From a virus, in the IMG/VR virus record IMGVR_UViG_3300033153_003388, positions 1 to 20,863 of that record: a stretch of DNA of 20,863 nucleotides; one strand, 5' to 3'. The notes below the pieces were generated by a model, which saw only the letters and a list, made by a program, of their open reading frames with translations, searched no databases and was not told the DNA's origin. Positions 932 through 19,206 of this stretch are shown piece by piece. Position 1 is the first letter of the stretch. Each line of letters starts with the position of its first letter. The position numbers and the translations under genes were made by a program.

Positions 932-1540
932 CTGATTCAGGTCTGTCATAAACTTAGAAATAAAATAAGATGTTGAGCCCGTTTCAACTGCGTCTATAGA
1001 AACAACACAGCTTGCTCCACCACCGCCTGTGGTTGAACTAGTTCCTGTTGAGTATCCATACCCATAAGCTCGAATAAGAACTTCTTCAACTTCGCCAGAA
1101 TCTCCCACCCTATCTACTACTACTGTTCCCTCACTACCGCCTGTTGTAAGAGCAAGAACCTCGTCAACAGCATACCCTGAGCCAGCTGTGTCCACACTTA
1201 TATATACTAAAGCTCCTTCAAGATGACCGGAAAAATAAATTGGTCCTGCGGATAGCTTACTCCCCTTTTCAAAATATCCAAGTGCTTTGATGCTCATAAA
1301 GTTTCCAGACATTTTAGGTTTATCACAAAACCCTTCGAATACTCTATCACCATACATATCAAAGATAACTACATGTTTATTAATCCAATAGTTTATAGAT
1401 ATGTTTGGATTGTATGGTATAGAAAAACTAGCGTCCCTGAACCCGCCTTCCATGTCTGTTTGCACAGTAACATCTTGTCTTGTGTGGTTAACAATCATAT
1501 TATCTTCATCATAATTATCATAAATACAAATAGAAAACAT
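929..1540 (-). CDS. Baseplate hub (Tal-like) protein, N-terminal portion ending at an in-frame amber
   Basis: 203 residues up to TAG (931-929). The ATG at 1540 overlaps the Dit-like stop as TAATG, and GGTGG stands 5 nt away, so I prefer it to the ATG at 1573. Residues 1-107 are beta-rich and resemble siphovirus tail-tip hub N-termini (IYDNYDED, DVTVQTDMEGGFRDASFSIP, VVIFDMYGDRVFEGFCD, MSIKALGYFEK). Residues about 108-188 are a GxGY module (GSGYAVDEV and GYGYSTGTS). The last residues SKFMTDLNQ then read into TAG, and the same frame continues for 247 codons. Alone, this product would lack most of the hub domain. Confidence 0.7.
   Translation of the reverse strand: MFSICIYDNYDEDNMIVNHTRQDVTVQTDMEGGFRDASFSIPYNPNISINYWINKHVVIFDMYGDRVFEGFCDKPKMSGNFMSIKALGYFEKGSKLSAGPIYFSGHLEGALVYISVDTAGSGYAVDEVLALTTGGSEGTVVVDRVGDSGEVEEVLIRAYGYGYSTGTSSTTGGGGASCVVSIDAVETGSTSYFISKFMTDLNQ
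977..1219 (-). other. GxGY two-unit module in the hub protein
   Basis: Encodes hub residues about 108-188 (GSGYAVDEVLALTTGG then GYGYSTGTSSTTGG, ending VVSIDAVE). It lies between KALGYFEKGSK and SKFMTDLNQ, so it splits the hub domain in a loop-like spot, as in the tail tube copies. Confidence 0.65.
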
Positions 1541-3690
1541 TAGTCCACCAATCCTAGATAGTTCCCAACACAACCAACCTCAACATCTAAAGTCAAAGCC
1601 ATGCTTGCAGTTCCACCGCCGTCTTCACATAAAAAGTAAAGGGAATTACCAGCATTACTTGGCATTAGTCTAATAGGGGGCATGATACCATCTACCGATA
1701 CCTCTCCTAAGAATGAAGATGAAAATTCTTGTATGTATGGAGCTGTCCTTCTGCTGTCATCTACCAATTTATCAAGTATAAAGAACGGAACATTACCACA
1801 GTTTATGTATCTGAAACCCTGCCCTACTGGAATCAGTGTAATAAAATCAAGGTCTAGGTCATATGTAATTATGTCATCAGAAGCGTTATATACATCATCA
1901 GGTTTTATTTGAGCCTGAAGAATTAATGTAACATCTGGGGAAGACTCTTTAGAGCCGGAAGGTGGAACGACTGCTGACCCAAAATCAAACAACGCATCTG
2001 TATTATTATTTGGTGTCTTCCAATCTGTCTTATCCATTTCAATGAAACTACTATCATAGTCTGTTATGTACCCAACCTTTACTCTATAATTTAAGCTTGC
2101 GTTCCAACAACTTCCTGTTTGTGCTTCCTTTCCCACAATGCGAACACGTTGGTTTATAACTGAAACATACTCCCTGTCTAGTGTCCAAGTAACTAAGTCG
2201 TGTATGCCTTGTCCCGATACACGTAGTGTGGTATAATTACTGTTAAGGTCATCTGTTGTTGAATCGTTTACAGTAATTGTATCTATATTAATTTCACAAC
2301 TAGAGCCTGAGCCGCCAGTTGTTGTGTTCCCGTCAGCAACAGCGTATTCAGCACCGTCCGTAAGAATTGAAACTGTAAGAACCTCACCACTACCACCAAC
2401 TGTATCAATATTTAATGTTAAGTTTCCGTCACCACCGTTTACCGCAAGGTCTTCGTCTTGAACATATCCAGTTCCAGACGAGCCGCCGGGAACTGAAACT
2501 GTTGCTACAGTACCACGCTCATGAACGTCTGTTATTTCATCAATATCAAATGTAGCAACACCATTGCTGACAGCAACGTTTGTGTCAGAAGCGGTGTAAT
2601 CGCTTCCACCATCTTTAACTTCCCATGTTGAAATAGCTCCTGTAGCTGTAACTGATAGGATTCGTATCTTACAATCATCGTTCCCACTACCACCAGTAAA
2701 TGTTAGTATTTCGTTAACAATATAACCAGTGCCGTTTGTGTTTATGGAAATAGAATCTACTACACCAACTCTAAGATTTGATATATCACAATAAGACAGC
2801 GAACTATCTGCTCCTAAGTGGTGCAGTGTGTTTAGTGTAACTGTAGCAGCTGAAGAATGTGTCGCAGGTGAGGTGGCGTTGTGTCCACGAACAATTGTCC
2901 ACACCCCAGCTTCTATATCTGTAACCTGTAAATCTTCTGAATCTATTGTAACAGCAAATGGAACTAACACCTTACCAGTGTAATCTTCATCTACAGTCAT
3001 TTCTGTTACACTACCATCTATACCAGCAGATAAACTAGTTACATAGGAGAAGTTTCCATTACCAATATAAATCTTTTGTGTGCCATTTGAGTACTTACCA
3101 ACAAACTCTAAAACTGTTTCTGTTATTACATCACCGTCTACATCATTAATAGATATTACGTCACCATTGTCTATTGTTGTTGTTACTAGTCTTGAAACAT
3201 CCCCCTCTTTAGTATAAGAAGGGTAGTCAGTAAAGAAAGGAGCTGTGTCAACAGTTAGAACACAGTTATGTAGAACATATGTGTCACCCTCTGTCCAGTG
3301 CGCCCCTGACATACTGAATAACTGTTCAGGAAGTTTCAACTCACCGCTCAAAATTCTAAGGTAGCTTGAATTACTATCCTGTACAGCCACCTCAAGGTCT
3401 ACTAAACCGCCAGTGTTGCCCTCGTTTATAAGCTTTGACACTGTATTGAGGTTGTCCATAAGAGCTGAGTAGGTTGTTCCATAGGCTGTAAAATTTAAAG
3501 ACACTTTTCTATTCGAGTATTCAACATACGAAAACTCTTTACCGTGATAACCAATCAACGGCGAAGAATCAATTCCTTTTGCTTTTGGTTGTCCTAACTT
3601 TAGCCCGCCTTCAGTAACATTGAAAGAAACTAACTTATCAATGAAGTCTGCGGTAGTGTTGCCGTTTGATATTTTCAATACAAATGCCAT
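1540..3690 (-). CDS. Distal tail (Dit-like) protein with inserted GxGY modules
   Basis: Forms the ring at the tail tip that joins tube to baseplate. The first about 160 residues resemble Dit N-termini: beta-rich, SYVEYSNRKVSLNFTAYG, then HNCVLTVDTAPFF. Residues about 236-288 hold a module (VPFAVTIDSEDL... WTIVRGHNATSPATH...) of a kind found in many phage proteins. Residues about 311-475 are four glycine-rich units, i.e. two GxGY modules (GTGYIVNEI, DGGSDYTASD, GTGYVQDED, DGAEYAVADG). The last about 220 residues look beta-sandwich-like. 716 residues is large for Dit (often 250-300); the inserts account for much of the excess. The start overlaps the tape measure stop (TAATG) with GGAG upstream. 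The family name is inferred from gene order and N-terminal pattern. Confidence 0.75.
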   Translation of the reverse strand: MAFVLKISNGNTTADFIDKLVSFNVTEGGLKLGQPKAKGIDSSPLIGYHGKEFSYVEYSNRKVSLNFTAYGTTYSALMDNLNTVSKLINEGNTGGLVDLEVAVQDSNSSYLRILSGELKLPEQLFSMSGAHWTEGDTYVLHNCVLTVDTAPFFTDYPSYTKEGDVSRLVTTTIDNGDVISINDVDGDVITETVLEFVGKYSNGTQKIYIGNGNFSYVTSLSAGIDGSVTEMTVDEDYTGKVLVPFAVTIDSEDLQVTDIEAGVWTIVRGHNATSPATHSSAATVTLNTLHHLGADSSLSYCDISNLRVGVVDSISINTNGTGYIVNEILTFTGGSGNDDCKIRILSVTATGAISTWEVKDGGSDYTASDTNVAVSNGVATFDIDEITDVHERGTVATVSVPGGSSGTGYVQDEDLAVNGGDGNLTLNIDTVGGSGEVLTVSILTDGAEYAVADGNTTTGGSGSSCEINIDTITVNDSTTDDLNSNYTTLRVSGQGIHDLVTWTLDREYVSVINQRVRIVGKEAQTGSCWNASLNYRVKVGYITDYDSSFIEMDKTDWKTPNNNTDALFDFGSAVVPPSGSKESSPDVTLILQAQIKPDDVYNASDDIITYDLDLDFITLIPVGQGFRYINCGNVPFFILDKLVDDSRRTAPYIQEFSSSFLGEVSVDGIMPPIRLMPSNAGNSLYFLCEDGGGTASMALTLDVEVGCVGNYLGLVD
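2266..2760 (-). repeat. Tandem GxGY modules in the Dit-like gene
   Basis: Encodes residues about 311-475. Two successive modules, each of two units: GTGYIVNEI then GGSDYTASD, and GTGYVQDED then DGAEYAVADG. Each unit is followed by a short run rich in G, and the modules end in FDIDEIT and INIDTIT. Copies at protein level only; DNA is diverged. Confidence 0.7.
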
Positions 3691-6600
3691 TAAATCATCT
3701 CCGCAAGTTTATAAGAGATAACCTCAGCCAGTTCGTTGATAGAATCTTCATCTTGAACTACTGGACTATCTATGTTAATATTTATTACTGCACCACTACC
3801 AGCTACATCTCCTGCCATACCAACATCTCTTAAGATTTTATCTGTTAATGATGTTGATGTAACGTGACCAGCAACTGGTGGAGTAAACAACTCCCTTCCA
3901 GCTTCACCAACAATTCCGTATGCTCCAGCTCCAGCATAACCTCCGCCCTGCCACTTGTCTGGATTTGGTAATCTTATATTAATTCTTGATACTAAACTGC
4001 CCGGAGCATCTGCTAGTGAGTTCCAGCCATCAATTAATATTTGTATAAATTTGAATATGCCTTTAGCAAGTTTTACTATAATTGATTTACCCATAGTATA
4101 CATTGCAGAACCAAGGTCATTTACTCCTTCCCACATACTTTCTTTTACATTTGTCCAGAAAGTAATGACTACATCTTTACTGAACACGTTCTCTATAACA
4201 GTCCATGCCGCCTTAAATAATGGTTCTAGCTCTGTCCATAAACCCTTTATCATTTTTATAAAGTCTTCAAACGCAACGCCCCAATTTGTTTTTATGTTTT
4301 CCCACAACTCTGTCACCCAACCTGCATGCTCTGACATATCATCTGAGAATGAATCCCCCCAAAATGCAGCCCATCCGTCAGCGAACCACTGTCCGATTGA
4401 TGTAAAGAAATTTGCTATACCATTCCCTACAGCAACCCAGTCTATGTCTTCCCACATGTCCACCATCCAACTAGTGTGCTCTGACATACCGCTTGAGAAC
4501 GTTGTCCAACCATCAGCGAACCACTGTCCGATTGATGTAAAGAAATTTGCTATACCATTCCCTATAGCAGCCCAGTCTATGTCTTCCCACATGTCCACCA
4601 TCCAACTAGTGTGCTCTGACATATCACTTTTGAAGGTTGCCCAACCCTCAGCAAACCATTGTCCTATACTTGTAAAGAAGTCAGTTATAAATCCCATATG
4701 TTCATCCCAATCAATATCAGTAAAACTTGCAATGAAGATAGCCCACAACATTTTTGCACTCTCCCAAGCTTTCTCTCCGTGCACAACTACAGCCCAAACC
4801 AGAGCAGCAACAGCCGCTATAACAGCCGCTATCAATCCCCACACAGGTAGTGTTATTGCTCCGAACACAGCAGTAAGTGCCGTTGTTATTGCTGTTCCAA
4901 TAGCTGACCATGAAATACTGCTAATAGCCACAAATGCTCTTGCTGCAAGATACTTAAATACTTCCTTCATAGCAATTGATTTTACTGCTGCCTTAAGTGC
5001 GGCTAGTAATATTTTCCCAAATACTACCCCAAGCACACCCAGCTTAATGTTCTTTCCTATTGTGTCTTCATCAAGTGTAAGGTTCTCTAATGTAGTTGCC
5101 AAACCACCAAGTATCTTATCAATATTTTCTAGTGGAGTTGCCCCTTCTTCAAGGTCAACAGACCCACCAAATAATGCTAATATTACTCCTGCAAATTTTT
5201 CTGTTATCTTACCAAGGCTAGTAGCAATTGAAGGTCCATACTCAATCATCATCCTTCCTAACTCACCGAGCGCATATGCTAGGTCATATATTCCGCCAGC
5301 ATCTGCACTACCGTCCATCATATCCTTTACACTAGGTAGTTCTAAATCCTGACCAGTAAACCCAGCCAATAACTCTGTAAAGAATTTAGAAATACCACCG
5401 AGCGCACCGTTGTCTCCAAATATTGGAGCAAGTTCTTCTGCTAATCCTTCTGCTTGTGATATAAATGAGTCCCTGAATGGGTCAAAGTACCCTTCTTTTG
5501 GGATTATATCTGTGTCCTCTGGATATATACCCTCCATAGCCTCAGCCATTTTCGCTTCATCAATAGGTAGTTGATATATTTCATCAATCCTATCCATGAT
5601 AGTGTCTTTAGCTTCTTGTGTTACGTCAGGACCAAACCAACTACTAATAGACTTTACTATATCTTCCTTACTAACCATTTCAGCAAGACTCTTTATTATT
5701 TGTGTGCCCCGCTCACCCATAAACATTGTTATTAAATCTTCTTCTGACTCTGCCTCAAATGCGCTGGCAAAATCATTCATAATATCTTTAACAAACCCTT
5801 CTGGGTCAAAGTTAGCCTTCATTTGTTTTTCTATACCAGCAAATATTTTTTCGGCATCTGCACCGGTTGTAAATATCTCCCACATACCACCAATAGCCGC
5901 AATGATTCCTAAGATAACTTGTTTTACTTTTTCACCAGCTATTTTTAGTGCTATAAACCTAAGTTGCGCCTCAGAATACTTACCAGTTAATTCATCTAAG
6001 CTTGTTCCTCCAAGTGAAATAGCCCCAACTAAATCGCTCATACTATCAGCACCAGAACCACCGCTATCAGCTGTTAGTGACAGCAACTCCTTCCACAAAT
6101 CCGATTGTTCTTGTAGTGCGTTTAGTAGTTCCTTCTGTACATCTAATTGTTCTTGTAAAAGTTGTTCTCTTTTCTCAAGAATAGTTTCTTCTTCAGATAA
6201 AGCTTTATTACTTTGGTCACGTTGATAGGCAGCTGAAGCAATGCTCTCAACCATCTCCTCAGCAGTTGAACCAGAAAGACGGATTACGTCTACTTGTTCT
6301 TCGTACCTATCGTTGACCTTTATTCTTTCTTCTTCAATTTCAGCCAACCTTCTCTGAACTTGCTCTAATTTTAAGTGTGCTTTGATTAACTTTTTCACTT
6401 CATCTGCACTAGAACCATACCCAGACACCAATGAGTCTATATATGCGTCTGATATTTTTACACCCTGTCTGTTTAGTTTAAGAAGCTTAGTGAATTGTTC
6501 TTTGAACTTAATCAAACCCTTTAGAACACTCTTTCTTTCTTTGTCGTCATCCTCTCCAGATGGGGTAAAGTGCAGTGAACCTAATATTCCCTCAATAGTT

Positions 6601-9188
6601 CCTGCTACATCTGATAAGATACCAAAGTCTGCTTTAGCAAATCCTTTCAGATAGGTGTTCATAAGAACAGCCCCCCACATATCAATACCTGACAGTGGTC
6701 CTTCTTTCGGAGGAGAGTGTGCTTCTAAGAAACTAGCTATTGTGTTAGCAATAAGCTTAAGTGAACCAATAATAATTTTAGCTCCTTGAACAAACCCCTG
6801 TGAGAACGACTCCATGATTGCCTTGCCCCACTTTCCTGCGTTCTTCTCTAAATTACCAAATAATTTTTGTGCGTAATCTTGTAGTTTACCCAGACCACCC
6901 ATGTATTGTGATAACAAGGTATATAGTGTCCCACCAATTAATATTAATATTGGGTTTAATGTCAACAACCCAACTACTAGTTTAGTAAATAAACCAATAA
7001 TAGGAACAATTACACCACCAATTCTTTGGAAACCATTAATTAACATTGTAACACCAAACGCTACCTGTGATAAGAACCACGACATAGGTCCGTACAGAGC
7101 TGCAATCATAAGGATTTTTCCAGCCAATTGCTTTGTTGCCATTGACATTCCTTTATATAAATCTGTCACAGCCATTAGAGTAGATTGCGCCATGGTTAGG
7201 AATTTTGATAAAATTGGAATAACGTCATCACCAACAGTAGCACTAAACATTTCAAATGTATTCTTCAGAAGCTTAACCTTTACCTCTGTACTTGCCAGAA
7301 CCTTTGTGTACTCGTCCATTAGAGTACCACCGTCTCTCCATGCTATTTTAGATGCCTCTAACATTTTAGAAAGCATTGATGTTCCGGCTGCCATTTGCGT
7401 TGCTCCCTCAGCAGCTTTAGCTAAGTTAACTAGAAGTCTACCACTTCTCTTTCCAAGAATTTTATTTGCATCTGAAACAGATTTAAGTGCAGATTCATTA
7501 TCTGCTAGAGCTGCGGATAACTCATTTACTGTACCAACGAAGTTAGTATTAAGTGCGTTTAAAAACTGCTGTTTAGTTGCCCAGTTATCTGTTTGAATAC
7601 CAAGTTCTTCAATCATGTCTGCATTTTGAACTAAGTATGCAGGCATATTCTTTAATGCTGTTCCTACTTCTTCTGCTGTCATACCAAATACTTTACCAGC
7701 TGTTGCCCATGCAGCTAAGTGTGAAGCATTTAGTTCTACATACTTTCCGTTATCCATAACACCAGCAGTAAACCCAGCGAAAGAGGTTGTTGCTTTCTTC
7801 AACATAGTAACTACTTCTGGAGCAGTTACTTGGAACTGATTTTCTAATGCGTTTACTGTTTCAGCAAGTCTATCAATATAATCTACTGCATCACCAATAT
7901 TATCAGTATCCGCAAGACTACGCCCAAATGCAGTTGAGATTGTTCCCAAATCCTCAGCGATATTGTCAGCCGCAATGTCCGTTGCTGATGCTACTGCATC
8001 AAAAATCATAACAAGCTCAAGCATAGCCCCTTTATCAGAGACACCAGCTTGACCAAGTTGTTCTGTAAATTTAGATAATTCAGCCGCTGAAGACACAGAC
8101 ACAGACGCTAATTTTGTTAGCTCTTCTCTATATGCTTTCATAGCACCCGGAGCATCAAACAGCTTATCCGTAACCTTAGCCACCCTCACCAACGCTGATT
8201 CAAGGTCAATAGCTGCTGTAACAGATTCTTTTATAAATGCTGTAACAGGTACAGCCACAAAAAACGTCATGGCTCTAGCTAATGTCAGAGCACCTTGTGA
8301 TGCAAGACGAAAACCAGACACCGTATTTTTCATGCCTTCATTAATTCTACCTACTTGTCGAACCATTCCTTTTGATTGTTTTAAAAAGCTAGGTATGGTG
8401 TTTTTAGCCATATTACCTAGTTCTTTCCCAAATGTACTTACAAATTTAGACGCATCAAAATAACCCGGATTCGCTATTTCTGGGGGTGTTCCTCCTCCAC
8501 CGCCTCCGCCGCCCCCGCCTCCTCCGCCACCTTCATTTCCTAAAAGATTTGTTCCACCAAAACCATCAACCTTAGCTAAATATTGGTCAAGAAGATATAC
8601 TAGGTCACTCATTTGCTTTATAAGTGTACCAATATCTCCTGAAGTTTCTGTCATCTCGTTACCTAAGACCTCTGTTGCCTTACCAGCATCTTTAGTCTTG
8701 TATAGAGATGTCTCCATGTACTTAGCAAACGCCGCCTCTGCTTGTGATGCGCCTTTTACTGCACTAGTATTAAGTTTTTCGTACTCAAGTTTCTTTTGAC
8801 CCTCTAAGTTGTAATCGGCTACAATCTTTGTAAGTCTTGTTAACTGACCAGCAGTAGCACCTGCTCCTGCTGCAATTTGTTTTGTAAAACCTCCGCCTTC
8901 TCTAACACCAGAGTTTATAGATAATTGTAGTCTTGTTACAGCTTGTCCTATATCCTTTATTGAAGCTATAGCATTTTCTTTAGCAAAAACTTTTTTGAAG
9001 TCAAGTGGAGTTAATCTTCTTAGTTCATTATCTAGGCGTGTAAAATTAGTTGTTAACGAATTTACACTAACAGGTAGTGCTTTAAGCTCTTGGCTCATCT
9101 TAGCCATTTTTCCTATAAAGGTGTCTATGCCCTTATCAACTACCTTCATGTTGATATTAGCTGTAAACCCTACTACCTGATTTGCCAT
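3690..9188 (-). CDS. Tape measure protein
   Basis: Sets tail length and helps DNA cross the membrane. At 1832 residues, and using about 0.15 nm per residue, it would fit a tail near 275 nm. The N-terminal region (about 1-215) is helical, then 14 glycines (220-233). Residues about 320-650 match the TP901 tape measure core (LTKLASVSVSSAAELSKFTEQLGQ, then ATDIAADNIAEDLG). Hydrophobic clusters lie near 300-322, 690-760, 1088-1103 and 1425-1468, with a coiled coil around 935-1030. Residues 1491-1630 are three tandem Trp-rich repeats. The C-terminus (GYAGAGAYGIVGEAGRELF) is the glycine-rich VGE.GRE motif common to this family. No lytic domain is seen. Both ends overlap neighbours as TAATG. Confidence 0.93.
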   Translation of the reverse strand: MANQVVGFTANINMKVVDKGIDTFIGKMAKMSQELKALPVSVNSLTTNFTRLDNELRRLTPLDFKKVFAKENAIASIKDIGQAVTRLQLSINSGVREGGGFTKQIAAGAGATAGQLTRLTKIVADYNLEGQKKLEYEKLNTSAVKGASQAEAAFAKYMETSLYKTKDAGKATEVLGNEMTETSGDIGTLIKQMSDLVYLLDQYLAKVDGFGGTNLLGNEGGGGGGGGGGGGGGTPPEIANPGYFDASKFVSTFGKELGNMAKNTIPSFLKQSKGMVRQVGRINEGMKNTVSGFRLASQGALTLARAMTFFVAVPVTAFIKESVTAAIDLESALVRVAKVTDKLFDAPGAMKAYREELTKLASVSVSSAAELSKFTEQLGQAGVSDKGAMLELVMIFDAVASATDIAADNIAEDLGTISTAFGRSLADTDNIGDAVDYIDRLAETVNALENQFQVTAPEVVTMLKKATTSFAGFTAGVMDNGKYVELNASHLAAWATAGKVFGMTAEEVGTALKNMPAYLVQNADMIEELGIQTDNWATKQQFLNALNTNFVGTVNELSAALADNESALKSVSDANKILGKRSGRLLVNLAKAAEGATQMAAGTSMLSKMLEASKIAWRDGGTLMDEYTKVLASTEVKVKLLKNTFEMFSATVGDDVIPILSKFLTMAQSTLMAVTDLYKGMSMATKQLAGKILMIAALYGPMSWFLSQVAFGVTMLINGFQRIGGVIVPIIGLFTKLVVGLLTLNPILILIGGTLYTLLSQYMGGLGKLQDYAQKLFGNLEKNAGKWGKAIMESFSQGFVQGAKIIIGSLKLIANTIASFLEAHSPPKEGPLSGIDMWGAVLMNTYLKGFAKADFGILSDVAGTIEGILGSLHFTPSGEDDDKERKSVLKGLIKFKEQFTKLLKLNRQGVKISDAYIDSLVSGYGSSADEVKKLIKAHLKLEQVQRRLAEIEEERIKVNDRYEEQVDVIRLSGSTAEEMVESIASAAYQRDQSNKALSEEETILEKREQLLQEQLDVQKELLNALQEQSDLWKELLSLTADSGGSGADSMSDLVGAISLGGTSLDELTGKYSEAQLRFIALKIAGEKVKQVILGIIAAIGGMWEIFTTGADAEKIFAGIEKQMKANFDPEGFVKDIMNDFASAFEAESEEDLITMFMGERGTQIIKSLAEMVSKEDIVKSISSWFGPDVTQEAKDTIMDRIDEIYQLPIDEAKMAEAMEGIYPEDTDIIPKEGYFDPFRDSFISQAEGLAEELAPIFGDNGALGGISKFFTELLAGFTGQDLELPSVKDMMDGSADAGGIYDLAYALGELGRMMIEYGPSIATSLGKITEKFAGVILALFGGSVDLEEGATPLENIDKILGGLATTLENLTLDEDTIGKNIKLGVLGVVFGKILLAALKAAVKSIAMKEVFKYLAARAFVAISSISWSAIGTAITTALTAVFGAITLPVWGLIAAVIAAVAALVWAVVVHGEKAWESAKMLWAIFIASFTDIDWDEHMGFITDFFTSIGQWFAEGWATFKSDMSEHTSWMVDMWEDIDWAAIGNGIANFFTSIGQWFADGWTTFSSGMSEHTSWMVDMWEDIDWVAVGNGIANFFTSIGQWFADGWAAFWGDSFSDDMSEHAGWVTELWENIKTNWGVAFEDFIKMIKGLWTELEPLFKAAWTVIENVFSKDVVITFWTNVKESMWEGVNDLGSAMYTMGKSIIVKLAKGIFKFIQILIDGWNSLADAPGSLVSRINIRLPNPDKWQGGGYAGAGAYGIVGEAGRELFTPPVAGHVTSTSLTDKILRDVGMAGDVAGSGAVININIDSPVVQDEDSINELAEVISYKLAEMI
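4299..4718 (-). repeat. Three tandem 45-residue Trp-rich repeats in the tape measure gene
   Basis: Residues 1491-1535, 1536-1580 and 1581-1630 each begin DIDW and contain FFTSIGQWFA. The third copy is 50 residues. At DNA level the period is 135 nt; 4378-4488 and 4513-4623 differ at only two of about 111 positions, while the first repeat is more diverged. This suggests a recent copy of one unit. Confidence 0.9.
8490..8531 (-). repeat. Poly-glycine codon run in the tape measure gene
   Basis: Fourteen successive GGN codons (mixed GGA, GGC, GGG, GGT), encoding residues 220-233. The run is C-rich on the plus strand and stands out in this AT-rich DNA. It is probably a flexible hinge between the N-terminal helical part and the core. 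Confidence 0.9.
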
Positions 9189-9610
9189 TATTTCCCCTTA
9201 ACTATACGTGTGTCTTTATTTTTAATACGTTTAGCAATTCCATCACCAGAATCAAGAATAATAATTTCTCCCGGCTTCATTCCATATTTGCGTTTATACT
9301 CTTTTCTTCTTCTTTCGTGAGCACTTGTCCAAGGAGTTAGAGTTGCTACCAACGACTTAGATAAATCTTTTTGTGCCTTATGCATTGCTCTTCCACCTTC
9401 TTTAGACATAGGTGTTCTTGCAAGAGGTACGATAGCAGAAACAATACTCCATTTATGCAACTCAGCTTCTTTACATAACCTGTACTGGTTTTGCATCCAT
9501 AGAATACCATGAAACTCTATACCATCTAAAATGTAATCATCACTCCACCCGTAGGTAGCTCTAAGTGTATGGAGTACAGGTCCATACCTTCTAAGAACTA
9601 GCTTGTGGAG
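9188..9610 (-). CDS. Tail assembly chaperone extension (gpT-like), made by -1 frameshift
   Basis: After slipping at 9616-9610 the -1 frame reads CTC CAC AAG CTA and stays open for 38 codons before the first in-frame Met (9496) and then 102 more to TAA, giving a fusion of about 280 residues with the 140 residues encoded before the slip. The basic C-terminus (RRRKEYKRKYG) fits a domain that contacts the tape measure protein. No ribosome binding site stands before the Met at 9496 (ATTCTATGGATG), so independent starting there is unlikely. The final TAA overlaps the tape measure ATG (TAATG). Confidence 0.8.
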   Translation of the reverse strand, partial: LHKLVLRRYGPVLHTLRATYGWSDDYILDGIEFHGILWMQNQYRLCKEAELHKWSIVSAIVPLARTPMSKEGGRAMHKAQKDLSKSLVATLTPWTSAHERRRKEYKRKYGMKPGEIIILDSGDGIAKRIKNKDTRIVKGK

Positions 9611-10029
9611 AAAAAACGATTGACAACTTTAATATATTCATCCTGCCCCATAAGAACCTCGACACCGTCAAGTAGTGTAGAAATATTAAAGTATTCCTCT
9701 GCCTCTTTTTTTGCGCAACCTGTTACAACAATGAACAACTCTACAAGAGCTGTAGGTGTTGCCACCTCTCCAATTGCACCTAACAGTTGGAAAAGCCCAC
9801 CCTCTCCGAGAGATACGTTTCCTTCATCATCCATAATCTTACTAGCAATACCTGTTCCGTACTTACCAAGCCAGTTTAGGATAGCAGACACTTGCTCTGC
9901 TTGTGCCATACCTGTCTTCTTAAGACTATATTCTTTTTCACCAACAACAATAACTGCTAGTGCTTCTTCTTCAACAACTTCCTCAACAACTTCCTCAATC
10001 ATTTCAGCTTCTTTAGTTTCGTCATTCAT
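9598..10029 (-). CDS. Tail assembly chaperone, short form (gpG-like)
   Basis: Binds the tape measure protein during tail assembly and is not kept in the virion. 143 residues with a very acidic start (EMIEEVVEEVVEEEA), a beta segment and a helical domain, in the usual place between tube and tape measure genes. The end NRFFSTS is encoded across CGT TTT TTC TCC, containing a canonical -1 slippery heptamer, then TAG. AAGGAG precedes the ATG. The short form is the 0-frame product; the long form is listed separately. Identification rests on position, size, and the frameshift arrangement typical of gpG/gpGT pairs. Confidence 0.85.
   Translation of the reverse strand: MNDETKEAEMIEEVVEEVVEEEALAVIVVGEKEYSLKKTGMAQAEQVSAILNWLGKYGTGIASKIMDDEGNVSLGEGGLFQLLGAIGEVATPTALVELFIVVTGCAKKEAEEYFNISTLLDGVEVLMGQDEYIKVVNRFFSTS
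9610..9616 (-). promoter_or_regulatory. Programmed -1 frameshift site (U UUU UUC)
   Basis: The heptamer T TTT TTC is in the gpG frame as CGT TTT TTC and matches the X XXY YYZ rule. A possible downstream stimulator is a 9-bp stem with one bulge (AAGGTATGG, arm 9582-9590, with CCATACACTT, arm 9563-9572), but the 19-nt spacer is longer than the usual 5-9. Confidence 0.85.
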
Positions 10030-10050
10030 CTCTTACTCCTTAAAATAACA

Positions 10051-10080
10051 AGACCCCATAGCTACACCGCTATAGGGTCT
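10051..10080 (-). terminator. Strong hairpin after the tail tube genes
   Basis: A 12-bp stem (AGACCCTATAGC with GCTATGGGGTCT on the minus strand, one G-U pair) and a 6-nt loop, followed by TTGTTATTTT. The wobble pairs only on minus-strand RNA. The imperfect T run suggests a partial terminator or RNA processing/stability element lowering expression of tail chaperone and later genes relative to the tube. Confidence 0.65.
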
Positions 10081-10119
10081 ATTGATAGTTTTATTCTTAG
10101 CCTGAGACTACGTTATTCC

Positions 10120-10650
10120 TTACGGGAAAGTAGCAGGCTTTTCAGTTCTATATAATTCTCCGCTTCCTGAAAAATCTACATCCAGTGTTACATAGTCTTC
10201 CACTGGTGTTGACATGTCAATTGAGCCTAGAATTATTTTTCCTAACCAATATTGTGTTGGTTCTGCATCATCTGAAGGTGCATCATTAGTTTTACTGTTG
10301 ATAAATATTACCCACAAGCTTGCGCCTGCTTTCATATTCACAAAAATTGTATCTGTTGAGCTGTCTAAATATCCAGACATACTACCAGACCAATCCATAA
10401 ACAGTCTTGCTTTGTCTACCCAAGCGTCAGCGGGACTTGCAACAAACACTTTGTGCTCTGCAATGTCTACAGAAATACTGATTGAAAATTCGTTTCTTTC
10501 TGGAAACTGTAACCAGTTGTAGTTTGTAGGATAATCTGTATCCCAAACTAATGTATCTGTACTCCACTTAGGAAGTTCGCAAGTTTCTCCTGATGCGTCC
10601 GTTTCTGATACAAACAAAATATCAGCATCAATTCCTATAATTGCGGTCAT
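10120..10650 (-). CDS. Major tail tube protein, copy C, without insert
   Basis: 176 residues, the plain form of the tube protein. The N-terminus MTAIIGIDADILFV is followed after a short linker (ETCELPKW...) by the same core as copies A and B, starting at residue 49. It lacks the GxGY insert, so it shows where the insert lies in A and B. The end differs (LYRTEKPATFP). A 125-nt gap separates it from copy B, unlike the 12 nt between A and B, and a hairpin follows. Its size matches ordinary siphovirus tube proteins, so it may be the ancestral form. AGGAG stands 9 nt before the ATG. Confidence 0.8.
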   Translation of the reverse strand: MTAIIGIDADILFVSETDASGETCELPKWSTDTLVWDTDYPTNYNWLQFPERNEFSISISVDIAEHKVFVASPADAWVDKARLFMDWSGSMSGYLDSSTDTIFVNMKAGASLWVIFINSKTNDAPSDDAEPTQYWLGKIILGSIDMSTPVEDYVTLDVDFSGSGELYRTEKPATFP

Positions 10651-10775
10651 GTTCTTTTACTCCTGTAGTTTACGTTTAAATCATCGTCCTCCTGTTTGAC
10701 ACATCTCCACACATTTGCTCTCATTTATTCTTCTCTCTGTATACTATAATCTATTTCCAACAGTTTTTGTTACTT
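10651..10775 (-). other. Spacer between tail tube copies B and C with a 25-codon micro-ORF
   Basis: The longest gene-free stretch in the window. A possible micro-ORF runs 10724-10647 (start MRANVWRCVKQ, 25 residues); its TGA overlaps the copy C ATG (ATGA), so it could couple or limit translation of copy C. Its own ribosome site is weak (AGAGAGAAG). A TATAGTATACA stretch resembles a -10 box, but no matching -35 is seen. Treat it as a leader of unproven function. Confidence 0.3.
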
Positions 10776-11567
10776 TTAGTATGGCATTTCTGAGCGATAC
10801 AGTGCACCACTACCAGCGAAATCTACATCCAATGTTACATAATCCTCAACAGGTGTTGACATGTCTACTGAACCTAGAATTACTTTGCCTAGCCAGTATT
10901 GTTCTGCCCACTGGTCATCTATTGCTTGGTCATTAAGTTTACTGTTCAAGAAAAGAACCCACAAACTTTCTCCAGCCTTCATGTTGTTAAATATAGCATC
11001 TGTTGATGCGTCTAAGTAACCAGACATTGAGCCCGACCAATCCATAAACAAACGAGCCTTGTCTACCCAAGCATCTGCTGGGCTGGCGACAAATACTTTG
11101 TGTTCCGCAATATCAACCGAAATTGAAATGCTAAACTCATTTCTTTCTGGGAACTGCATCCATGAGAATTCATCCCCATCACCACTATTTACTACAAGTG
11201 ACCAAGTGTTATCTGTTAAATCCCAAATTGGTAAAACCAATCCGTGAATTGAATCTACATCTACTGTAAGGTTATTATCTCCAGAAGCAGAGGCGTTTGA
11301 TGTCGCTACAGCTGCCGCTGTTGGGATACCAGAACCTGCAATATTTGCAGTAATCCCTACCAAATCTACCACACCAGCTGTTTGACTGATAACATACCCT
11401 TGTGCTACTATATCAGAAGTGCCACCTATGTCAAATGTTTCATCATCTGCATAACCTGCACCCCCAACAGCAACGCTGATAGTTGCAGCTCCACCTTGCG
11501 TGCATGCCAAGATATCTGATTCTGTTGCGAACAGTATATCGGCATCTATTCCAATTATTGCTGACAT
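10776..11567 (-). CDS. Major tail tube protein, copy B, with inserted GxGY module
   Basis: 263 residues. It starts MSAIIGIDADILFA and has the same layout as copy A: an insert at residues 24-107 containing GAGYADDETFDIGG, a second more diverged unit (around AGSGIPTAAAV), and a closing LTVDVDSI. The core from residue 139 is identical to the other copies over 48 residues; the ends differ slightly (GALYRSEMPY versus GELYRSEMPY in A). The insert point is the same as in copy A, yet insert sequences are much more different than cores. The AAAGGAG site lies in the 12 nt between copies A and B. A paralogous tube subunit, or a decorated tube variant, is the likely role. Confidence 0.8.
   Translation of the reverse strand: MSAIIGIDADILFATESDILACTQGGAATISVAVGGAGYADDETFDIGGTSDIVAQGYVISQTAGVVDLVGITANIAGSGIPTAAAVATSNASASGDNNLTVDVDSIHGLVLPIWDLTDNTWSLVVNSGDGDEFSWMQFPERNEFSISISVDIAEHKVFVASPADAWVDKARLFMDWSGSMSGYLDASTDAIFNNMKAGESLWVLFLNSKLNDQAIDDQWAEQYWLGKVILGSVDMSTPVEDYVTLDVDFAGSGALYRSEMPY
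11247..11498 (-). other. GxGY two-unit insert module in tail tube copy B
   Basis: Encodes residues about 24-107, at the same insertion point as in copy A. The first unit is clear (GAGYADDETFDIGG), the second is degenerate, and the closing LTVDVDSI matches the LTVDTETI of copy A. The low similarity of the inserts contrasts with the identical cores that follow. Confidence 0.65.
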
Positions 11568-11579
11568 ATTTTTACTCCT

Positions 11580-12365
11580 TTAGTACGGCATCTCTGAACG
11601 ATATAGTTCTCCGCTACCAGCGAAGTCCACATCCAGAGTTACATAATCTTCTACGGGTGTTGACATATCAATTGAGCCCAAAATAACTAGACCAAGCCAA
11701 TACTGCGTTGGTGCAAAGTCATCTGTTGGTGCATCATTAGTTTTACTATTGACAAATGCTACCCATAGACTTTCTCCTGCTTTCATGTTTGTAAAGATTT
11801 CATCGTTTGATGCGTCAAGGTATCCTGACATGCTCCCTGACCAGTCCATGAATAGTCTTGCTTTATCTACCCATGCATCAGCAGGTGAAGCTACGAATAC
11901 TTTATGCTCTGCAATGTCCACTGAAATTGAAATACTAAATTCGTTTCTTTCTGGAAATTGAGTCCATGAGTATGTGCCGTCATTTACTAACACAGTCCAA
12001 ACGTTTGTTGATGTGTCCCAAGGTGGGATAACCAGTGAATTGATTGTTTCAGTATCAACTGTAAGCCCTGTACCACCAGCGGGCTCTACTGTTGTTGCCA
12101 TTGCGTCATCCCCTATTACATATCCAGAACCAACTTCGATTCTCGTAATACTATCAGGAATACCAGTAGTAGCTACCACTGCGAAAGTAGCCGCTACATC
12201 TTGGTTTGCGCCACCAGTTACAGTAACCACATCACCAGTATCATTATACCCAGTACCTGCTGCTGCTATAGAAGCTGTAGCGATACCACCTTGTAGTGTT
12301 TCTGCATCTACAGTACTCTTTTTCACAAACAGAATATCGGCATCAATGCCTATAATTGCTGTCAT
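11580..12365 (-). CDS. Major tail tube protein, copy A, with inserted GxGY module
   Basis: Tail tube subunit, one of three tandem paralogues. 261 residues. It starts MTAIIGIDADILFV, a start shared with copy C and nearly so with copy B. Residues about 25-108 are a glycine/threonine-rich insert with two units (GTGYNDTGD...GG and GSGYVIGDD...GG) ending in LTVDTETI. The core follows: from residue 137 (FPERNEFSIS) a 48-residue block is identical in all three copies, and DMSTPVEDYVTLDVDF is also shared. The core is typical of a beta-sandwich tube protein; assignment rests on position before the tail chaperones and on the high conservation. AAAGGAGT precedes the ATG. Either the tube mixes the copies or only some are assembled; this cannot be told from sequence. 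Confidence 0.8.
   Translation of the reverse strand: MTAIIGIDADILFVKKSTVDAETLQGGIATASIAAAGTGYNDTGDVVTVTGGANQDVAATFAVVATTGIPDSITRIEVGSGYVIGDDAMATTVEPAGGTGLTVDTETINSLVIPPWDTSTNVWTVLVNDGTYSWTQFPERNEFSISISVDIAEHKVFVASPADAWVDKARLFMDWSGSMSGYLDASNDEIFTNMKAGESLWVAFVNSKTNDAPTDDFAPTQYWLGLVILGSIDMSTPVEDYVTLDVDFAGSGELYRSEMPY
12042..12293 (-). other. GxGY two-unit insert module in tail tube copy A
   Basis: Encodes residues about 25-108. Two glycine/aspartate-rich units (GTGYNDTGD and GSGYVIGDD, each followed by GG) end in LTVDTETI. The limits are judged by comparing with copy C, which has no insert. Related modules occur at 11247-11498, 2266-2760 and 977-1219. Confidence 0.7.
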
Positions 12366-14159: not shown

Positions 14160-15479
14160 TTACGCTAATTTTACGTGTCTTAGAACTGAGAACAGTTCGC
14201 CATTGACAATCTTCATAGCTAAGTACGCTTTCAACATGTAATCGTATGTATCTTTTGTACGAGCAAGAGGTACATATGAGACCATGTTATCCACGGACTG
14301 ACCCATGCTGTCAATAAGACCCATGTATGAAGCACCGTTTCTTGAGCTTGCATTAGCAAGAAGAATAATCTCTTCCCCTGCTTCCAGTGGCTCAACCTCA
14401 TGTTCTACTGCAAAATCTGCATCATTGAAAGCCAATACTGTTCCGTTTACTGTTCCATCTGAATCGTAAGTAAGAGCAGGGATAATGTCCACAAGTTTGT
14501 GACCATCTGCTGCTGTTGTTGGCTCACGGAAAATCATATATGCGTATGCATCTGCATCTGCTGTCCATGATAGGTCAACATCAAAATCTGCTGTTGGGGT
14601 AACTACTGCCTCAGCAACACCAACACATTCGCCTTGGAATGTAACTGAAGATACTCTATATCCGTAAACTTCGTTAGCAGCACCAGATGAAACATCTGAG
14701 CCCGCAACTGCGGCTAGAGAACCAACGCCTGATGTTCCGGCTTTTAGCATATTTGTTTTGAAAATTGGTAAGGTATCGTATGTTCCCATAGTAAGCTTAC
14801 CATCAAATAGTTCCATGCTTTCAATAGGCATTTGAACTTTTGTTTGTAGACCATCTGTGATTTGCTTCATTCTACTTGACATAGAAAAGAATTTTGGGTC
14901 TCCCTCTGTGCCACGGTAGTCAATAGCATCAATCATTTGGTCTAGTTCATCTAATGTGATTTTATTTCCACCACCGTTAATGACGTTTGAAACATGTTCT
15001 GAATACACGAAAGGTAGGATACCTGTGTATTGGTATGCATCACCTGAAAATTGGTCATCAGCGTCTCCACTTGAACCGTAAAGAGTTGACCACTCAATAA
15101 TATCAGCAACGCCCTGTAGTGACAGGTCGATTTCTTGTGCAAGAGCATCTAGGTCTTTGTCTGTTACTGCTTGGTTGAACCCACTTACTGAACCCCAATT
15201 GCGTAGGATTTTAAGTTGTACAGAGTCACGACCATAAGTACCTTTTCTGCTATTAGCTGGTGTTACTTCGCCTTCGAACCAACCCTTCGGATGTGTAAGA
15301 ACTCTACGAAATTCGTGTGTCTTACCATCAGCTTTTTCTAGTCCGAACAAACTAACAAGCGGTTGCTTGTCAACTAGCTCTTCGTGAAGAACAGGGTCTA
15401 GGTCTTCTGAACGTAGGTCTACCGTATCGGCTGAAACAAGAGCCTTTCTTAATGCGGTTAATACGTTTTTTTCTTCCAT
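14160..15479 (-). CDS. Major capsid protein (HK97 fold) with inserted Fn3-like domain
   Basis: Forms the icosahedral shell. It directly follows the protease and has a strong AAGGAG site. The 439 residues are longer than the usual 300-400. Residues 1-245 and 366-439 read as a capsid core: an N-arm, FEGEVTPANSRKGTY, a helix around QEIDLSLQGVADIIEW, and a C-terminal DTYDYMLKAYLAMKIVNGELF strand. Between about 248 and 365 lies a different composition (VSSVTFQGECVG, VDLSWTADADAYAYMIFRE, then a T/D-rich stretch) that resembles a fibronectin type III fold. This probably protrudes from the capsid surface. The N-terminus lacks an HK97-like delta domain. Identification rests on gene order, size and core pattern. 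Confidence 0.85.
   Translation of the reverse strand: MEEKNVLTALRKALVSADTVDLRSEDLDPVLHEELVDKQPLVSLFGLEKADGKTHEFRRVLTHPKGWFEGEVTPANSRKGTYGRDSVQLKILRNWGSVSGFNQAVTDKDLDALAQEIDLSLQGVADIIEWSTLYGSSGDADDQFSGDAYQYTGILPFVYSEHVSNVINGGGNKITLDELDQMIDAIDYRGTEGDPKFFSMSSRMKQITDGLQTKVQMPIESMELFDGKLTMGTYDTLPIFKTNMLKAGTSGVGSLAAVAGSDVSSGAANEVYGYRVSSVTFQGECVGVAEAVVTPTADFDVDLSWTADADAYAYMIFREPTTAADGHKLVDIIPALTYDSDGTVNGTVLAFNDADFAVEHEVEPLEAGEEIILLANASSRNGASYMGLIDSMGQSVDNMVSYVPLARTKDTYDYMLKAYLAMKIVNGELFSVLRHVKLA
14385..14738 (-). other. Fn3-like insertion domain within the capsid protein
   Basis: Residues about 248-365 of the capsid protein. The order strand, GEC, VTPT, DLSW, YAYMIFRE, then a closing DSDGTVNGT/FNDADF fits a fibronectin type III pattern (conserved Trp in the B strand, Tyr/Phe-Arg in the C strand). 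The boundaries are estimates. Surface-exposed Ig-like or Fn3 domains are well known on phage capsids; binding function is inferred. Confidence 0.6.
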
Positions 15480-15497: not shown

Positions 15498-16859
15498 TTA
15501 TTGCGTTTTGAAGTAGTTTTGCAAAGCACCTTTGATACGTGAAACACTCTTCTCTGATTCTTCCTCAAAGAAAGTTAGCTTCTTGCGGTTTGCAACTTCT
15601 TTATTTTCTTCCGTTGTCTCGACTGTTGTCTTGCGATTAGCGGGGGCATCGTCTACGTCTTTTGAAACTTCCTCTGTCTCTTCTTCGAGAGTCCCTACTG
15701 CTTTGTCTTCAGTAGCCTCATCAATCTCAGGTTCAGATGAAAGTAATTTCGCCAGCATAGCCTCAATCTCTACTAGTCTATCAAGCATATTGTCGTCTTC
15801 ATTATCTATAATCGCTTTTTCTTCCATTTCGTTATTTTCAAGAAGTTCTTTTTCTTCTTCAATAACTTCCTCTTCTTCATCTTCTTCCTCAGAAGACTCT
15901 TCAATAGGAAGCTCCGCCTCTGGTACTTCCAGAAGTTCTTCTTCTTCTTCGACTTCTTCTGTAACTGCTTCGACTTCTTCTGTAACCGCTTCGGTTTCCA
16001 CCGCTTCCACTACAGCTTCAGTTTCTACAGATTCTTCAAGAGCTTCAGCTTCTTCAATACTTCCGACAACCTCTGCATCTTCAAGTTCTTTCTCTTCCTC
16101 AGCTTCCTCAACCTTTTCTTCCTCAACCTCTTCAAGTTTCTCTACTTCCTCAAGTTCTTCTGAAACCTCATCAACAGTCTCAAGTTCCTTCTCTTCGTCC
16201 TCTTCTACCACAACTTCACCAGCGGATAGTGATTTAAAGATAGGTACTAAAGCTTCTGCTGTTCCAGCTTCTCTGATTGCTTTACGAGCTTTTTCATTTA
16301 ATTCAAACATAACGTCACCTTCTATTGATTTGAGTGCATGCTCAATAATACTTGCATGTGGGTTGGCTGGGTGGTCAACAACGCTGATTTCTGCCAGCAT
16401 GTATTCATGAATTTTCCATCCACCACTGTCCATCCATTCCACTGCTTTTTCATCAAAAGGGTTGAAAAGGATTCCAACTGATAGTCCCTTCATTACACCT
16501 GTCTGCACTAATTTGATTGTCTCTTTGTCAACTAATTTAATAACAACTTCATTCCATGCCAAACCTTCGACCCCGTCACCTTCACCAATGTTTCTGGCAA
16601 GTCCAACTGGTTTTGGTTGGTGCATAAAACGAATGTTTCTCCATTTCTTATAGTCAGGAAGAGCGTTTCCTGTAGCATCCTTGGTAATAATATCCCCAAC
16701 GCTATCTAAGTTATCGTCTGTGAAATACGCTCTGATGTCCAACTCATCCGGGGTATCTCCCCCACTATCTATGCTCTTTTGTTCTTGAGCAATTGAAATG
16801 ATATTAGTATCGTCAAAGCCAAAGAATTTAGTTACAAATTTTAGCTTCTTTTCTTCCAT
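15498..16859 (-). CDS. Prohead protease (HK97 / S78 type) fused to an acidic scaffold-like domain
   Basis: Cleaves scaffold and capsid proteins during prohead maturation. Residues 1-175 form the protease: GDIITKDA, FMHQPKPVG with the likely catalytic His80, MKGLSVGI with Ser127 as nucleophile, and LAEISVVDHPANPHA with Glu157 as the probable third residue. Usual proteases of this family are about 200 residues; this one has 453. From about residue 215 to 345 it is an extreme Glu/Val/Ala repeat, then a leucine-rich helix (MLDRLVEIEAMLAKLL, about 358-373) and a basic end (RIKGALQNYF). This resembles protease-scaffold fusions in which the C-terminus binds capsid subunits. The capsid protein lacks an evident N-terminal delta domain, consistent with scaffold supplied here. 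AGGAGG lies 5 nt before the ATG. Confidence 0.85.
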   Translation of the reverse strand: MEEKKLKFVTKFFGFDDTNIISIAQEQKSIDSGGDTPDELDIRAYFTDDNLDSVGDIITKDATGNALPDYKKWRNIRFMHQPKPVGLARNIGEGDGVEGLAWNEVVIKLVDKETIKLVQTGVMKGLSVGILFNPFDEKAVEWMDSGGWKIHEYMLAEISVVDHPANPHASIIEHALKSIEGDVMFELNEKARKAIREAGTAEALVPIFKSLSAGEVVVEEDEEKELETVDEVSEELEEVEKLEEVEEEKVEEAEEEKELEDAEVVGSIEEAEALEESVETEAVVEAVETEAVTEEVEAVTEEVEEEEELLEVPEAELPIEESSEEEDEEEEVIEEEKELLENNEMEEKAIIDNEDDNMLDRLVEIEAMLAKLLSSEPEIDEATEDKAVGTLEEETEEVSKDVDDAPANRKTTVETTEENKEVANRKKLTFFEEESEKSVSRIKGALQNYFKTQ

Positions 16860-16867
16860 TATTCCTC

Positions 16868-17149
16868 CTAATGTATATCTTTTATAGCGTCTAAAATTCT
16901 TTCTGTTCTACGCTCATAAAACAATTTCTCAAGTTGTACTACTGGAATCTTCTTTACCATGTCACAGGTAATACTTTTAATTCCACCCCTAAAAGTAATT
17001 GGCTCGTCCCACTTGTACCTCTTTATGCCGTCTCCCCATAAATCATACACCCTTCTATTATCTGCTTCTGTTAGACATAAGTCTATAGGTTTAGCTAATG
17101 ATAGTACTTCAACGCCCCTTCTCTGTACCATTTTATGTGGGTATCCCAT
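16868..17149 (-). CDS. Hypothetical protein between portal and protease
   Basis: A 93-residue, basic protein that I do not recognise. It starts with an ATG directly after the TAA stop of the zinc-ribbon gene (TAAATG) with GGAGGAG in front, and ends in TAG 8 nt before the protease start, so it is part of the head operon. It contains two cysteines (LCLTEAD and ITCDMV) but no clear metal site, plus a helical basic C-terminus (FYERRTERILDAI). A head assembly or regulatory role is suggested by position alone. Confidence 0.7.
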   Translation of the reverse strand: MGYPHKMVQRRGVEVLSLAKPIDLCLTEADNRRVYDLWGDGIKRYKWDEPITFRGGIKSITCDMVKKIPVVQLEKLFYERRTERILDAIKDIH

Positions 17150-17458
17150 TTACTCCTCCTCTCTTTTCACATTAAAACTGTCTTCATTAAGTTCTTTATG
17201 TATTATATTCAAAGCTCTCCTTGCAATTATGTACGATAGTGTGTCTAAAAACTGCTCAAGTGACCGCACAAGGGGGCTTGATGAGTACCACACTTTCTCA
17301 TTATTACATTTCGGACAATGAATAATCATTGAGTTTCCACTTGACCTAACTATTGATGGGTCAACCGTGTCAGCAAGGGTAAGTTCTCCCCCTAATATAA
17401 ATCCCAATGTTGCACCGCACGCTCTATCAGTGCAGTACCATCTCTTAAGTTCGCTCAT
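17150..17458 (-). CDS. Zinc-ribbon protein in the head module
   Basis: A roughly 102-residue protein of unknown function. Near the N-terminus it has CTDRAC, and about 35 residues later HCPKCNNEK: two Cys pairs that would bind one zinc as a ribbon. The rest is helical and basic to acidic, ending KREEE. An upstream ATG at 17464 is only 1 nt from GGAG, whereas the ATG at 17458 has 7 nt spacing from AAAGGAG, so I prefer 17458. It sits between portal and protease genes, right after the portal stop. Similar small zinc-ribbon proteins occur in phage head operons; a nucleic-acid or structural role is inference only. Confidence 0.75.
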   Translation of the reverse strand: MSELKRWYCTDRACGATLGFILGGELTLADTVDPSIVRSSGNSMIIHCPKCNNEKVWYSSSPLVRSLEQFLDTLSYIIARRALNIIHKELNEDSFNVKREEE

Positions 17459-17470
17459 CGACATACTCCT

Positions 17471-19087
17471 TTATGTTCCTACGTATAAATGTCTTCTTAG
17501 TTCTTCCATGCTCTCAATAAATTCATCTTTAGTCTCAGACTTAGACAAAATTTGTTGAACAGCTTTCATTGTTTTTGCATCTTCGTGATTCCAGAAAAAC
17601 TCCACGTAGTCCTCTCTCCTACTAGACCATCTATTGAGAACAAAACGTTGTAAGGCTGCTAGTTCATTAATTAGTTCTAGCTCAAACAATCGTCTGTCTC
17701 CTCTAGGCGGGTCTTGGTCATCAATAGTTGGCTCACCAACTTCGGACGGAGAATCTGGTCTGTCTTCTCTTCCTTCCGGCGGACTTCCTTGTTCTTCGCT
17801 TTGATTATTTGTGATTGGGTCAGTGAAGTCTCCACCCTTCCCATCCTCTCTAGGAGGTAAACCACGTTCCGCTCTAATTTCATTGGCGTTCATAACTCCA
17901 ATTTGTCTATAGCGCATGTGAACTGTGGCTTGTTCCACATCATCAAGAAAATCTACTCTTCCGAATTTGAACACCCAGTCATCTATCTCAAAAAGTCTTT
18001 TATGTACTTGAGTATATAACCCTTCTTCAATAAATCTAAACAAAGGAATGACTGTTGACTCAAAGAACTCTTTTCTATAATCTTCTGATAACTCATTTTC
18101 TGTATCTATACCGAGCTTGTTAGCCATAGTCCCAACAACAGAAAGAATCTCCTGTCTTGTTCCATTTCTGGCTTCCATGTAAGGGATTTGGTCTGGGAAC
18201 GAAGCTAAACGTTTAATGTTTATTTCTCCCGACACAACGATAGGAACTTTACCTATGTTGTTTGCCCCTTTATAGTTATCTTCGATGTAGTCCGCAAGAG
18301 CATTGAACTCTTCTTCGTCTACTTTCTCTGGTAACTCCCAAATTGCAGGAGGAAGCTTACTTTCCTGTAGATACTGTATAGCTGCTGTTTGCAGATATAT
18401 ATCTAGTGGTAATGGAAAGTTTGTTAGTGACTCAACAAGCGCATCACCCCAAGGTCTCCCTGTTAGGTCTGGTGATACGATGAATACTACCTCGTCACTA
18501 CTATAACTGGCTAACTCTTTACCTGTATCCAACGATAAGTGAATAAAGGCGGGGTCTTTAAAATAACCCTCTTCATCTACATTAGGTATCACAAATCCAT
18601 AGATATATTCAAAACCTAAAGGTTCTCCTGCTTGGTTCTTCACTATTTGAAAAGCTGCTTGTCCAAAAAACTTTAGATAGAACAAAGCCGCCACTAGTTT
18701 AGATGGCATACCGTAAAAATCTTTGATGTTGTTCCAGTCTGGCGAACTGTATCCATAGAAGGCTAAGAGTTTTTCCTTGTTCTCATCGCTTGCTTCTAAA
18801 AAATGGTTCTTATGTTTTTCAACTGCCCAATCTGCCCCGACACCAGCGTTTGTTACAGTAGTGATTGCCGCCTTGAAGTAACCGTCCACCTTTAGTGCAT
18901 CCATAATATCTTTGTACAGAACATATCTTTTCAGTACTTGATTATTTTGGATAAGGTTTAGAATTTCTCTTTGAGAAGACGTTAGCGTTGCTGTTAAAGC
19001 TTTGCTACTTTTTGAGCTCCCAGAGGTTGGAGATAACCTGCGGTAATGTAGTTTCCTACCCTTATTACCTGATGTTGCTATTTGCAT
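17471..19087 (-). CDS. Portal protein (HK97 / phage_portal family)
   Basis: Dodecameric ring at one capsid vertex through which DNA is packaged and ejected. The 538 residues fit the usual portal size. Typical features are an N-terminal region with IMDALKVDGYFKAA, a central alpha/beta body containing GRPWGDALVESL, and the wing/crown motif MNANEIRAERGLPP near residue 415, a hallmark of the family. After it comes a hydrophilic, Pro/Glu/Asp-rich linker (about 425-475) and a helical tail. GGAGG sits 5 nt before the ATG. It is the first gene after the terminator and starts the head module. Phages normally have the large terminase just upstream; here the neighbour is the reductase unit, so terminase must be encoded elsewhere. 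Confidence 0.88.
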   Translation of the reverse strand: MQIATSGNKGRKLHYRRLSPTSGSSKSSKALTATLTSSQREILNLIQNNQVLKRYVLYKDIMDALKVDGYFKAAITTVTNAGVGADWAVEKHKNHFLEASDENKEKLLAFYGYSSPDWNNIKDFYGMPSKLVAALFYLKFFGQAAFQIVKNQAGEPLGFEYIYGFVIPNVDEEGYFKDPAFIHLSLDTGKELASYSSDEVVFIVSPDLTGRPWGDALVESLTNFPLPLDIYLQTAAIQYLQESKLPPAIWELPEKVDEEEFNALADYIEDNYKGANNIGKVPIVVSGEINIKRLASFPDQIPYMEARNGTRQEILSVVGTMANKLGIDTENELSEDYRKEFFESTVIPLFRFIEEGLYTQVHKRLFEIDDWVFKFGRVDFLDDVEQATVHMRYRQIGVMNANEIRAERGLPPREDGKGGDFTDPITNNQSEEQGSPPEGREDRPDSPSEVGEPTIDDQDPPRGDRRLFELELINELAALQRFVLNRWSSRREDYVEFFWNHEDAKTMKAVQQILSKSETKDEFIESMEELRRHLYVGT

Positions 19088-19153
19088 TACTCCTCCAATA
19101 TTTTATTGTCCTCTGTTAAATCACGACAACGGAGATGTTATTTCTCCTAACAT

Positions 19154-19189: not shown

Positions 19190-19206
19190 AATACAATTCT
19201 TATGCT

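Follow-up and report, generated by a model that had tools for sequence, protein, structure and literature searches.

A two-unit GxGY module inserted in several tail proteins of a virus appears to belong to a widespread family of phage surface domains

Why does one glycine-rich module recur in tail tube, tail tip and hub proteins of a single virus, and what could it do there? The question arises from a virus record of 20,863 bases (hereafter the window, meaning the whole stretch of DNA analysed), whose genes, on the minus strand, run in head-to-tail order and comprise a reductase-like gene (judged by eye, a ribonucleotide reductase), portal, protease, an SU10-type capsid protein, connectors, three tail tube genes, a tail chaperone pair, the tape measure, a Dit-like distal tail protein and the hub. 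No sheath gene was found among the head-to-tail genes of the window, and from this gene content the tail is likely to be long and non-contractile. Searches of viral collections, with alignments, retrieved only two close relatives, contigs L005 and L006, and the genome collection yielded none, so that the related genomes are three, this virus included. Isolate phages showed no tube homologue above noise. At fourfold-degenerate sites the tube genes of the three phages were only 30–53% identical. Other features of the window are recorded here in their own right. The tail chaperone pair (9188–10029) has a run of six T directly upstream of the stop of its first frame, typical for a -1 frameshift product; the tape measure gene contains a tandem repeat at 4369–4679 (135 bases or 45 residues, 2.3 copies, 89% matching); and capsid protein residues ~245–350 (14430–14747), behind the SU10 capsid match (20–215), resemble by eye an FN3-type insert, a segment with no Pfam match and no clear PDB match.

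All proteins considered below are encoded on the minus strand. Tube paralogues A (11580–12365, 261 amino acids) and B (10776–11567, 263 amino acids) carry the module and paralogue C (10120–10650, 176 amino acids), aligned with A, B and their relatives, lacks it. The three matched PHROG 1407, a major tail protein family, with E-values of 4e-7, 4.5e-6 and 4e-7, respectively, and the closest fold matches of the tube core, none at E <= 0.001, were the tail tubes of monocin, SPP1 and NF5. The profile matches, with the fold matches of A, identify the three as tail tube (major tail) proteins. The gene for the Dit-like protein (1540–3690, 716 amino acids) follows that of the tape measure, and the assignment draws on the L006 orthologue, which matched Pfam Sipho_tail with an E-value of 0.0045, below the curated cut-off. 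Residues about 205–290 of this protein (2821–3078), just ahead of its modules, form a second, different domain (DEDYTG...TIVRG) with only a sub-threshold Pfam match to HepII_C. The hub or tip protein gene (185–1540) is weakly identified, through a match of the L006 orthologue to phrog_31, central tail fibre J (E 0.013). It contains an in-frame TAG at 929–931, the frame being open on either side; in L005 and L006 the position is occupied by sense codons, in uninterrupted frames, and the TAG could be a real amber codon, read-through or an assembly error. In L005 the Dit-like and hub proteins are fused in one frame of 1065 residues (16198–19395), the end of the former and the start of the latter being absent at the joint.

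Modules were located by HMM, and those of the window, L005 and L006 were aligned. Each spans ~80 residues with two GxGY units, as described in an earlier note on this DNA; this is so in general, the second unit of the tube B module being degenerate (GSGI, without Y). The modules occupy residues 26–111 of tube A (12033–12290) and 25–110 of tube B (11238–11495), both also delimited by paralogue alignment, residues 309–389 (module 1, 2524–2766) and 393–475 (module 2, 2266–2514) of the Dit-like protein, and residues 109–188 of the hub (977–1216). Dit module 1 is kept in both relatives and module 2 is missing in both. An I/V...GxGY-type motif occurs 14 times in the proteins of the window, overlaps counted, and is confined to these four, compared to a mean of 0.84 and a maximum of 6 in shuffled proteins; none of the head proteins of the window carries the module. 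Searches of Pfam and NCBIfam, and of the PDB with single proteins, returned nothing of use for the modules, Pfam families of Ig, Big or FN3 type did not match the module-bearing proteins of the window and its two relatives, no residue pattern suggesting a ligand site was seen in the module, and the literature gave no match under the name of the motif. AlphaFold models built on 6–8 sequences had mean pLDDT values of 51 and 32 and yielded no confident module. Each module would be an independently folding beta-domain, in which the two units, of ~40 residues, would contribute about three strands each.

The homology of the segments was assessed by a profile comparison, which the earlier note had proposed. 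With each family left out in turn, HMMs scored Dit module 1, Dit module 2 and the hub module at 31.1, 31.3 and 28.4 bits; among 12,000 shuffled modules the highest score was 16.8. The tube A module scored 14.9 bits (decoy maximum 15.4) and that of tube B had no reported score. Since by plain HMM the tube modules are at decoy level, their membership rests on the profile–profile comparison, in which the tube profile aligned with the Dit/hub profile with a probability of 97.5 and a score of 62.6, the best of 200 column shuffles scoring 24.2. The shuffled controls were thus surpassed, the tube alone being borderline by plain HMM, and the claim that one module is present in four tail proteins was confirmed.

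The absence of the module from tube C had been read as evidence of insertion, a reading that is borne out here. The core of C is 76–81% identical to those of B and A, and ~85 extra residues follow residue 24 in A and B only. L005 has two decorated tubes and one bare, and L006 one of each; the order and identity of C are conserved, this gene being always last and always bare. Further, L005 and L006 lack Dit module 2 and their sequences run uninterrupted across the site, indicating that this module is a presence/absence polymorphism. Insertion is therefore shown twice by sequence comparison, through the bare tube C of this phage and both relatives and through Dit module 2 against the relatives. 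The count of four carriers holds within the window and has to be extended outside it by at least one: downstream of the hub, L005 encodes a further tail protein with two modules, a fifth module-bearing tail protein, the window and the L006 record both stopping short of this gene. A search of the complete L005 and L006 records found modules in tail genes only.

In a tree of the modules, those of the tubes, of Dit site 1 and of the hub each grouped according to the protein that carries them, whichever of the three phages they came from; the insertions at those sites thus predate the split of these phages. Modules from outside (phiM9, S-CAM1 and Dpo31) were unseparated from the non-tube ones. The tree gave no sign of copying within the virion, and the data leave an origin within the virion and one outside it undistinguished. 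An origin of Dit module 2 by tandem duplication was unsupported, its best scores being with hub and tip modules and not with Dit module 1; its place in the tree is unsettled.

The likely position of the module on the tube was approached through a low-confidence model of tube A. This has a strand at residues 9–15, strands from residue 142, a helix at 189–195 and three more strands, which is the order of a tube protein and would place the insert between the first two core strands. The beta1–beta2 loop of lambda gpV makes contact with the outer Ig domain belonging to the next subunit (PMC8718954); as the insert would lie in this same loop, the module is likely to be on the outside of the tube. 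Together with two solved relatives that protrude from their host proteins (see below), the lambda loop lends indirect support to surface exposure, and in this respect to the location on the outside of the tail that was originally proposed; the adhesion or reinforcement proposed with it would still be a matter of interpretation.

Bare and decorated tube genes are retained together in all three phages, and similar ribosome-binding sites precede all three tube genes of the window. Subunits A, B and C, made side by side, would give a tube partly studded with modules, and the Dit-like, hub and tip proteins would bear the same knobs at the distal end of the tail. A tube of this kind exists in SPP1, where bare and FN3-bearing proteins are present at 3:1 (PMC8718954). 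In a quartet comparison of tube core columns from two genomes, 9 columns sorted by genome, 17 by paralogue and 0 in the third pattern, fourfold sites being near saturation; the columns sorted by genome would suit subunits that share interfaces, with old gene conversion as the alternative. Recent gene conversion among the tube genes was ruled out, given that fourfold sites were equally different within and between genomes (0.30–0.53 identical). It is possible, though we consider it unlikely, that the three proteins are not mixed in one tail and that decorated and bare forms serve different tail parts or conditions: the conservation of gene order and identity, with C last and bare throughout, and the likeness of C orthologues (80–88%) would fit such a division, whereas the similar ribosome-binding sites and the core columns that sort by genome argue against it, even if ancient gene conversion would leave the same columns.

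Combined, these observations make it fairly probable, in our judgement, that the module is an exchangeable, outward-facing beta-domain of a phage-wide family, inserted in loops of tail proteins and displayed by a mix of decorated and bare tube subunits. Its likeliest job would be weak docking, either to glycans on the host surface or to fibres of the phage itself, as the T4 sheath protein gp18 does through its domain I. Docking or adhesion is favoured over reinforcement, the function being a reasoned guess. That the modules mainly reinforce the virion, clamping neighbouring tube subunits or rings and cementing the tip, is a rather unlikely reading. It has a precedent in the YSD1 tube, whose inserted domain2, a beta-sandwich, folds over onto the following subunit (PMC8718954), and occurrence in tube, Dit-like protein and hub would suit stacking contacts. 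However, the tube modules diverge fast (34–64% between non-orthologous copies, against 68–88% for the core), which ill suits a conserved packing interface, a bare tube is retained, and in T4 gp18, domain I takes no part in contacts between sheath subunits (PMC3004832). More doubtful still is that the module is merely tolerated as a passenger, being a mobile and well-folding domain that recombination has placed in surface loops to little or no advantage. The restriction of Dit module 2 to one of three phages, the variable number of module-bearing tube genes (two or one) and the degenerate second unit in tube B are what such a passenger would leave, but the tube, Dit1 and hub modules occupy the same sites in three phages despite a fourfold identity of 30–53% in the tube genes, suggesting that selection has maintained them. 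Finally, it is highly improbable that the segments are unrelated glycine-rich linkers alike by composition, since this accounts for the low identity between module classes (about 25–30%), their high glycine content and the decoy-level HMM score of the tubes against the other modules, but is largely refuted by composition-preserving shuffles, which did not reproduce the profile scores, and by an order of elements that is identical in all classes.

The docking domain proposed here appears to be one of a widespread family of phage surface domains that point outward and are barely catalogued. The module profile found the sheaths of S-CAM1, phiM9 and Atu_ph04 with 34–41 bits, and hhalign of the module against phiM9/Atu_ph04 gave 96.7. 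In cyanophage S-PM2 the module matched six different open frames, including several large proteins, and PHROG families with the module comprise baseplate wedge, head closure (neck), head decoration and tail fibre proteins. The spread of the repeat across one virion, which had been taken as the outstanding trait of this virus, is consequently nothing exceptional for this repeat, as the cyanophages demonstrate. The window shares with the GxGY virion-domain family of cyanophage and rhizobial phage type two consecutive units recognizable by profile, and has host virion proteins that also exist without the module, namely the tube (C) and the Dit-like protein (module 2). As in those phages, the same repeat unit is found in several proteins of one virion; those phages are contractile-tailed, and no tube with a GxGY insert was seen among those considered here. 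New here is a tail tube protein that carries the module next to a paralogue without it; new as well are the polymorphic insertion and the connection with two domains of solved structure.

A broader proposition, for which we see the chances as evenly balanced, is that the GxGY module ranks with Ig-like domains as a promiscuous accessory domain and is hardly covered by Pfam, uniting T4 gp18 domain I, domain D3* of Dpo31 and the repeats of head, baseplate, sheath and tube proteins, and that the tube here is built of module-bearing and bare paralogues together. If true, this would provide a sequence handle on widespread phage surface domains missed by current annotation, connect such domains with two known structures and with a T4 mutation that impairs fibre docking, and offer a natural decorated/bare tube pair for testing what they do.

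The family of inserted surface domains would include D3* of Dpo31, the tailspike of Cobetia phage Carin-1 (PDB 28lx, 28mg and 8ck1; PMC13317679), and, more distantly, T4 gp18 domain I. A PDB profile search matched Dpo31 residues 446–506 (E 0.0011), and hhalign of the module against Dpo31 gave a probability of 95.2, 200 shuffles reaching at most 4.9; with a wider module profile, Dpo31 was not among the PDB matches listed. This profile similarity points to a D3*-like inserted domain. Like the module, D3* is inserted (~100 residues) and shows the GVLVDITIDDAGAGY / GGVSAITITDGGSGY pattern; it projects from its host protein and is soluble when expressed alone (PMC13317679). Unlike the module, it lies within the beta-helix of a podovirus tailspike, and the match covers residues 446–506, not the whole module.

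With the wider profile, T4 gp18-type sheaths were the top three and four of the six best PDB matches (E 0.03–0.24), at residues 102–171 of T4-type gp18. Module and T4 gp18 domain I were aligned by hhalign with a probability of 88.4 over ~45 residues, one unit only, 100 shuffles reaching at most 1.7. Pfam Gp18_dom_I (PF22639) matched the phiM9 sheath module best, with an E-value of 0.034 and 14.5 bits; its curated cut-off of 27 was reached by no module here, and one module of the present set was at E 0.43. The GxGY family may thus include T4 gp18 domain I, through a link that is weak by E-value and covers one unit. This domain, a six-stranded barrel present as an insertion, projects from its protein and binds the baseplate and retracted fibres, and three mutations in it, including G106S, block fibre retraction (PMC3004832). 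When the numbering of that paper was matched to the sequence (initiator Met uncounted, which fits all three mutated residues), G106 was the first glycine of the GSNY motif. Like the module, domain I is an insertion (~90 residues) and has a motif of this type, GSNY-VGDKI-GKITEVDADGKI, in its first half; it protrudes outward and docks fibres, as is proposed for the module. It differs in that the first unit alone aligns, in containing a helix and in belonging to a contractile sheath.

The decorated and bare tubes resemble gp17.1 and gp17.1* of SPP1, where one phage likewise has tube protein with and without surface decoration. By contrast, frameshifting adds a C-terminal FN3 in SPP1, whereas this virus has separate paralogous genes, an internal insertion and another domain. 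Phage Ig-like domains (Big_2, FN3 and I-set, in lambda gpV, T5 pb6 and others) are promiscuous accessory beta-domains of many virion proteins, as is proposed for the module; the module has a different sequence signature, and no Pfam Ig, Big or FN3 domain was matched by the modules of this virion.
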